64,000 bases of DNA. Origin: Tistrella mobilis. GTDB taxonomy: Bacteria; Pseudomonadota; Alphaproteobacteria; Tistrellales; Tistrellaceae. The translations under genes were made by a program, and so were the position numbers. Shown here in pieces: positions 59,844-60,370 of the stretch. The stretch spans positions 2,149,501 through 2,213,500 of the forward strand of contig NZ_CP121017.1 in NCBI RefSeq assembly GCF_041468085.1, given 5' to 3'. Every line of letters begins with the position of its first letter. Position 1 is the stretch's first letter. The notes beneath the pieces are model-generated. The model saw only the letters and a program-made list of their open reading frames with translations. It ran no database searches and was not told the DNA's origin.

Positions 59844-59907
59844 GGCGCGATGTCGCACGGTGTTCGAACGGTCTGGCAGAAGCATGTGTTTCGCGGCGTT
59901 CCACGGC

Positions 59908-59936
59908 TTGACCGATCGCAGCCTCGCCCCTATGGT
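59908..59936 (+). promoter_or_regulatory. Sigma-70-type promoter of the tRNA gene
   Basis: TTGACC (59908-59913) and TATGGT (59931-59936) are spaced by exactly 17 bp. The predicted transcript would start near 59943, about 60 bp before the mature tRNA 5' end. Confidence 0.72.
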
Positions 59937-60003
59937 TACGCCCGTTCGCAGCCGGGGCGGTCTTCTCCCGGGCAGTCGGTGGCGGCGAACCGCAGAATAC
60001 TGC

Positions 60004-60327
60004 GAGCCCGTAGCTCAGCCGGTAGAGCATCTGACTTTCGATTGGGAGCGCCGGCCGGAAACGGCCGGATGAGACAGGCGTCAAAGTCGGGGAACCCGTC
60101 CGCGTCGCGGCGACGGCAATCCCGAGCCAAGCCGATCCTCCGGTACAGAGGATCGGAAGGTGTAGAGGCCAGACGGCGCCCACCTAACTCACGCACTCGT
60201 CTCAGGGTGCGACGACATGGTGAAGGGATGGTCCGGGCCACAAACACCCCGCAAGCGGGGTGGCGGTGAAAGCCGTGGTGGTGGAGTAATCAGAGGGTCC
60301 TGGGTTCGAGTCCCAGCGGGCTCACCA
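60004..60327 (+). tRNA. tRNA-Lys(UUU) gene interrupted by a group I intron
   Basis: The exons are 60004-60038 and 60287-60327, joined to 76 nt with CCA encoded. The acceptor stem GAGCCCG/CGGGCTC is perfect. D stem GCTC/GAGC, anticodon stem TCTGA/TCAGA and T stem CTGGG/CCCAG with loop TTCGAGT are all complete. Splicing after CTTT and before TAA gives a 7-nt anticodon loop CTTTTAA, so the anticodon is UUU (Lys). The discriminator base is A, as expected for Lys. The intron lies inside the anticodon, between positions 35 and 36. It is the only tRNA gene seen in the window. Confidence 0.9.
60039..60286 (+). ncRNA. Group I self-splicing intron (IC3-like) in tRNA-Lys
   Basis: The 248-nt intron has no open reading frame. 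P1 pairs exon CTTT plus C39 with GGGAG (60044-60048) and places a U·G wobble at the 5' splice site. P2 is 60051-60057/60062-60068 with a GAAA loop. P3 is GGCGTC (60077-60082)/GGCGCC (60175-60180). P4 is 60087-60091/60121-60125 and P5 is 60096-60100/60112-60116. P6 is a 9-bp hairpin (60132-60140/60148-60156). P7 is GGCCA (60167-60171)/TGGTC (60229-60233). P8 is CACC/GGTG at 60181/60219, and P9 is at 60245-60262. The last base is G, as required. The core (AAGGTGTAGAG, AGACGG, CCCACCTAA, ATGGTGAAGG) resembles the Azoarcus and Anabaena tRNA introns. Confidence 0.92.
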
Positions 60328-60333
60328 TCTTTT

Positions 60334-60370
60334 GAAAGCGGCATGTCCTCCCGGGCGTGCCGCTTTCTTC
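60334..60370 (+). terminator. Terminator after the tRNA-Lys gene
   Basis: A perfect 10-bp stem (GAAAGCGGCA / TGCCGCTTTC) starts 7 bp after the CCA end and is followed by TTCG. Confidence 0.8.

Follow-up and report, generated by a model that had tools for sequence, protein, structure and literature searches.

How does a bacterium read the lysine codon AAA when the gene for the tRNA concerned is broken inside its anticodon? The question is raised by positions 60004-60327 of a 64-kb stretch of Tistrella mobilis DNA (the window, by which we mean the whole stretch analysed), where removal of 248 nt (60039-60286) leaves a complete tRNA-Lys(UUU) gene. An earlier note, made from the sequence alone, had proposed a group I intron here, and its coordinates proved exact: the joined exons form 7/7 acceptor, 4/4 D, and 5/5 anticodon pairs, and the joined 7-nt loop, CUUUUAA, carries the anticodon UUU. 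Cloverleaf, anticodon, and kinship to Lys genes all place the gene in tRNA-Lys(UUU). In BLAST searches, uninterrupted Lys homologues of the class matched query positions 2-39 and 288-330 as adjoining pieces, the best being uninterrupted Lys(UUU) genes with 90-97% identity to the exons and a split exactly at 35|36. Since these pieces meet between query positions 39 and 288, the borders lie at 60038|60039 and 60286|60287 and the insertion falls between tRNA positions 35 and 36, as had been claimed. Other splits consistent with a group I intron, such as 33|34, which would give AGU, were rejected for want of such kinship and of a matching P1.

The features of the locus are collected in Table 1. 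The candidate promoter scored 9/12 in a consensus scan, against 0.1 expected in shuffled sequences, and a scan of the terminator-like region returned a smaller stem overlapping the hairpin that we read from the sequence. Neighbouring genes encode an AMP-binding enzyme, on the opposite strand, and a chemotaxis receptor; a tRNA-guanine transglycosylase gene lies farther upstream. Three mechanically called open reading frames overlap the intron, none with a Pfam match, and the minus-strand AMP-binding-enzyme frame owes its overlap to a start called too far upstream, the enzyme domain beginning at residue 208; the intron is thus free of open reading frames, in agreement with the earlier note.

Table 1. 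Features of the interrupted tRNA-Lys(UUU) locus (positions in the window)
Feature	Position	Strand	Description
Candidate sigma-70-like promoter	59908-59936	+	TTGACC-17-TATGGT, upstream of the tRNA gene; consensus scan
5' exon, tRNA-Lys(UUU)	60004-60038	+	GAGCCCGTAGCTCAGCCGGTAGAGCATCTGACTTT; acceptor, D arm, anticodon stem, C32 U33 U34 U35
Group I intron	60039-60286	+	248 nt, ORF-free, omega G 60286; RF00028 cmscan, homologues, covariation
P1	60035-60039 with 60044-60048	+	U.G at 5' splice site is U60038.G60045
P10 strand	60040-60044	+	GAUUG, with 3' exon UAAUC (60287-60291), 5 bp including one G.U
P2	60051-60057 with 60062-60068	+	GAAA tetraloop; 7/7 pairs changed on both sides
P3	60077-60082 with 60175-60180	+	99.3% of cells paired; 5/6 pairs changed on both sides
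P4	60087-60092 with 60120-60125	+	100% of cells paired
P5	60096-60100 with 60112-60116	+	Two outer pairs show compensation; the inner part aligns poorly
P6	60126-60128 with 60159-60161	+	P6a hairpin between; 98.7% and 93% of cells paired
P7	60167-60171 with 60229-60233	+	100% of cells paired (25 sequences); two pairs changed on both sides; pseudoknot with P3
P8	60181-60184 with 60219-60222	+	100% of cells paired; 3/4 pairs changed on both sides
P9	60237-60241 with 60278-60282	+	Encloses P9a and P9b (60264-60275, GAAA tetraloop); RNAalifold consensus
3' exon, tRNA-Lys(UUU)	60287-60327	+	TAATCAGAGGGTCCTGGGTTCGAGTCCCAGCGGGCTCACCA; U36 A37 A38, anticodon stem, variable loop, T arm, acceptor, encoded CCA
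Intrinsic-terminator-like hairpin	60335-60370	+	AAAGCGGCA...TGCCGCTTT-CTT, after the tRNA; read from sequence

Whether the insert is a group I intron at all depends on how a weak model score is read. At Rfam gathering thresholds, the whole window gave no match. A cmscan search of 501 nt against 4227 families nevertheless placed RF00028 at 60028-60244 (model positions 1-253) with 23.8 bits and E = 5e-4, a local match that falls short of the 50-bit gathering score, itself a curated threshold and not a molecular property. The earlier note had named a sub-threshold score as grounds for abandoning the intron. We do not follow it on this point, because relatives score 47-56 bits (L062 at 55.9 and L067 at 50.2, both passing; L064 at 46.9) and the helices covary overwhelmingly. 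The weakness lies in the threshold, given those relatives and given that, in a search of 385 genomes, the same model lost the introns of the two other Tistrella. As the window yielded no match at the gathering threshold, homologues and covariation were used as the test.

The intron folds more stably than 100 dinucleotide shuffles (z -3.3). In an alignment of 25 distinct Lys introns, the P2-P9 structure including the P3/P7 pseudoknot kept 92.5% of its paired cells, a figure somewhat favoured by our having drawn the structure on Tistrella's own sequence; independent of that are the changes on both sides of a pair, found in 28/47 pairs. The covariation score was 0.461, compared with 0.155 in shuffles and 0.05-0.072 for slid partners, and RNAalifold alone reached nearly the same nested helices. 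A P9 pairing first drawn in a shifted register (66% paired) was dropped and replaced by that of the consensus fold. The P1-P9 fold proposed earlier is present, with the core helices P3-P8 and the P3/P7 pseudoknot that define a group I intron.

The splice-site features fit as well. P1 joins CUUU of the anticodon loop to the guide GGAG, with a U.G at the cut, and its exon side is 4 bp in all tabulated cellular 35|36 Lys introns; a second wobble, U60037.G60046 (U34.G60046), lies one base upstream. A 5-bp P10 is likewise found in L061, L062, L119, and L145. The 5' U.G and terminal G, which we tabulated for 30 Lys introns, are in the Tistrella copy the U60038.G60045 and G60286 that had been read earlier. 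In P7, alignment columns 160-227 are G-C in 25/25 Lys introns, and the corresponding pair, G60167-C60233, is presumably the one that binds guanosine. With its place in the anticodon loop, 248 nt (about 200-300 in this kind), no open reading frame, and a grouping with Leu, Ile, and Arg introns, the insert belongs to the small group I introns of bacterial tRNAs; the subtype, IC3, is a label that rests on its known relatives. An archaeal or eukaryotic endonuclease-cut tRNA intron, short, at 37|38 and with a bulge-helix-bulge, was rejected in view of the 248 nt, the 35|36 site, the bacterial host, and the group I core.

The source genome (6.3 Mb in 4 contigs) was then considered for other readers of AAA. 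Among its tRNA-like matches above the Rfam cut-off that were read by ARAGORN, Lys(CUU) was represented once and an uninterrupted Lys(UUU) not at all, and BLAST with the exons gave no other Lys(UUU) gene in Tistrella mobilis; the gene is apparently single-copy, allowing for a tRNA copy missed in the four contigs. AAA is in use in the window (57 codons, in 27/38 long open reading frames). With no other Lys(UUU) gene found and the codon in use, AAA decoding should depend on splicing, which is what the earlier note had expected unless a second copy existed.

All three Tistrella genomes (3/3) have the intron. The same interrupted gene is present in the same-genus genome G002 and in Tistrella mobilis KA081020-065 (NC_017956.1). 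The three are identical in the exons (0% of columns variable), while 2-4% of columns differ in core segments and 37-44% in the tips of P6a, P8, and P9a; of the flanks, the upstream stretch 59901-60003 has only 3% variable columns and the downstream DNA 27-31%. This pattern suggests that the interrupted gene is in use in the cell. A second Tistrella assembly also holds, on a contig of 7313 bp (L263; G001:C48), an array of nine tRNAs including an uninterrupted Lys(UUU); the array is perhaps part of a mobile element, or contaminating DNA.

Based on these data, we are highly confident of a reading in which the gene would be a unit of its own whose group I intron at 35|36 excises itself to give a normal tRNA-Lys(UUU), with AAA translation dependent on the reaction. 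What the data show directly is the anatomy, the exact fit of the exons to uninterrupted homologues, the covarying core helices, the conservation in three Tistrella, and the apparent single copy; that the intron splices itself, uses guanosine to do so, and serves the cell in this way we infer. The primary transcript of the single-gene unit would fold into the ribozyme and pair ...CUUU of the anticodon loop with the intron guide GGAG to form P1. With exogenous guanosine bound in P7, the chain would be cleaved behind U35, at the U.G pair, and the freed 3'-OH of U35 would attack after the last G (60286) while P10 aligns the 3' exon. The predicted product has the loop CUUUUAA of a normal tRNA-Lys(UUU), on which AAA translation would depend since no other Lys(UUU) gene was found. 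A wrong cut at the second U.G (U34.G60046) could give a 6-nt loop.

Three other readings were weighed against this one. The locus might be a dead relic, either a pseudogene or a decayed ribozyme, with AAA read by another tRNA; the sub-threshold Rfam score of the Tistrella copy would fit, as would the uninterrupted Lys(UUU) in the 9-tRNA array on the 7.3-kb contig of assembly G001. A relic would hardly keep a conserved core beside freely varying tips, however, and no other Lys(UUU) was found in the source genome or, by exon BLAST, in Tistrella mobilis to take over. The tRNA-Lys(CUU) that is present cannot read AAA under standard decoding rules, and we consider a relic very improbable. Still harder to credit, to the point of being negligible, is that the gene is a tRNA-Arg(UCG) with other intron borders. 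This is what ARAGORN reported with introns allowed, Arg(tcg) with a 246-nt intron from gene position 39, so that the intron-aware search suggested in the earlier note did detect an interrupted gene but gave it the wrong name, tRNA-Arg(TCG). Those borders provide neither a terminal G nor a U.G at the 5' site, whereas the exons are close kin of uninterrupted Lys(UUU) genes and break exactly at 35|36. The arginine identity base A20 is absent from the D loop, and arginine is served by other isoacceptors in this genome (acg, ccg, cct, tct).

The remaining alternative keeps the same mature tRNA and supposes that a protein has to assist splicing, or that splicing is used to regulate AAA decoding. Splicing could be slow or inaccurate here, given that the host gene is apparently single-copy and that the 5' site offers two neighbouring U.G pairs, but small tRNA introns of like kind from Azoarcus and Anabaena splice alone in vitro, according to works cited in PMC3984707, and we regard assistance or gating as unlikely, though less so than the other two.

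Related introns were sought in 385 alphaproteobacterial genomes by DNA search, in 84,980 species by pattern scan, and on viral contigs by a further scan. The genome search and pattern scan found Lys introns in Tistrella, several uncultured lineages, Ferrovibrio, and seven Acetobacteraceae genomes, and the whole set comprised 33 distinct tRNA-Lys genes with group I introns (31 by script and two, L065 and L229, by hand) from Alphaproteobacteria including Acetobacter, from Acidobacteriota, and from phages. Lys(UUU) genes are interrupted at 34|35 or 35|36 and Lys(CUU) genes at 35|36, the latter in both Alphaproteobacteria and Acidobacteriota. The guide is mostly GGGAG in cellular 35|36 introns and one base shorter in 34|35 introns. 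Of the genomes with an interrupted Lys(CUU), the two that were checked, G131 and G373, retain an uninterrupted Lys(UUU).

On the viral side, Lys(UUU) introns of 181-196 nt were present on IMG/VR contigs L160, L162, L164, L165, L166, L169, L171, L174, L179, and L180, and several neighbouring genes on L164 match PHROG families. The isolated Gordonia phage Daredevil (NC_048021; L229:798-1109) carries an unannotated tRNA-Lys(UUU) with a 238-nt group I intron near an integrase gene. A 2014 review placed the phage introns observed so far in protein genes (PMC3984707).

The scans also returned introns in other tRNAs. Group I introns lie after position 36 of tRNA-Thr(GGU), a host not named in the reviews consulted, in the Alphaproteobacteria (L204 in G125:C233, L207 in G271, L210 in G176, and the 5' part of L206 in G089), at 34|35 of tRNA-Arg(UCU) in a Rhodothermales MAG (L155), and at 33|34 of tRNA-Leu(CAA) in G055 (L194). 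In an uncultured 595-kb phage (LR756511; L232), the end of a tRNA-Leu(UAA)-type intron is preceded by an HNH-like reading frame, which suggests that a phage tRNA here contains an intron of the homing-endonuclease type.

A tree of 73 tRNA introns puts the Tistrella intron among those of Lys, Ile(CAU), Leu(UAA), and Arg(CCU) tRNAs, adjoining L034, whose intron lies one base upstream. The 20 cellular Lys introns, from both isoacceptors, group together (bootstrap 88, SH-aLRT 97). The data reject a clade restricted to Lys(UUU) introns (p-AU 0.0001) but are compatible with a single clade of all Lys introns (p 0.25), and a single clade of all cellular Lys introns fits slightly better than the free tree. 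Rejection of the Lys(UUU)-only clade means that transfer of the intron from one isoacceptor gene to the other is probable, whether by reverse splicing or by recombination. Each isoacceptor gene has the exon body normal for it, so the intron appears to have moved rather than the anticodon to have changed. Our tentative picture, which we put at somewhat below an even chance, is of a lineage specialised on tRNA-Lys anticodon loops that would move among the Lys(UUU) and Lys(CUU) genes of bacteria, probably through reverse splicing directed by pairing of the anticodon loop with GGGAG, sliding its site by one base (34|35 or 35|36) with a change of guide and using phage tRNA-Lys as reservoir or vehicle.

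The significance of the locus is partly practical: ARAGORN in default mode found no tRNA in the window, and where this and the Rfam cut-off miss or misname the tRNA, the genome appears to be without a reader of AAA. The Lys relatives also make it testable how ORF-free tRNA introns move between tRNA genes, and the Tistrella gene would be a case in which ribozyme splicing appears to gate a whole codon.

Arg(CCU) is a host of bacterial group I introns, and the introns of the Agrobacterium type found in it here (L036, L185, L186, L196) share with the Tistrella intron an alphaproteobacterial home and the anticodon loop, but they lie after position 36, beside the anticodon and not within it. Leu(UAA) introns of cyanobacteria, plastids, and proteobacteria (IC3), found here at 34|35 in L035 and 14 more, are likewise small, ORF-free, and inside the anticodon, with a 5' U.G, a last G, and the same core; the Tistrella intron differs in its Lys(UUU) host, its 35|36 site, and its CUUU/GGAG exon-guide pairing. 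Ile(CAU) introns of the Azoarcus type (Acidovorax and Burkholderia; PMC8450103), of which we found many in Accumulibacter, Burkholderiales, Opitutus, and Planctomycetes, are close in the tree and similar in length and core, but have another host tRNA and by the 7-nt-loop rule lie at 33|34.

In the reviews and surveys consulted, the bacterial hosts named are Leu(UAA), fMet, and Ile(CAU) (PMC4033280, PMC8450103), and an intron in an Arg tRNA is described from Acetobacteraceae (PMC4596401). The tRNA-Arg(UCU) and tRNA-Leu(UAA) introns of giant sulfur bacteria extend the host range beyond the classic list, with no Lys host there (PMC4853749). A 37-nt 'group I intron' claimed in Gloeocapsa tRNA-Lys(CTT) shares the named host and the anticodon loop (PMC5733544), and we rejected it as the same kind, since inserts of 22-49 nt offer no space for a group I core, which takes some 100 nt at least. 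The earlier note did not count Lys(UUU) among the hosts it listed. In the literature searched, mostly open papers, no full-size group I intron in a bacterial tRNA-Lys is described. The case is not isolated, since Lys introns recur in other bacteria and in phages. Compared with these systems, the Tistrella intron combines ordinary chemistry with a host tRNA that is new to the literature searched and apparently an essential single copy, and with its relatives it adds tRNA-Lys to the bacterial group I intron hosts, at two sites, in two isoacceptors, in two bacterial phyla, and in phages.
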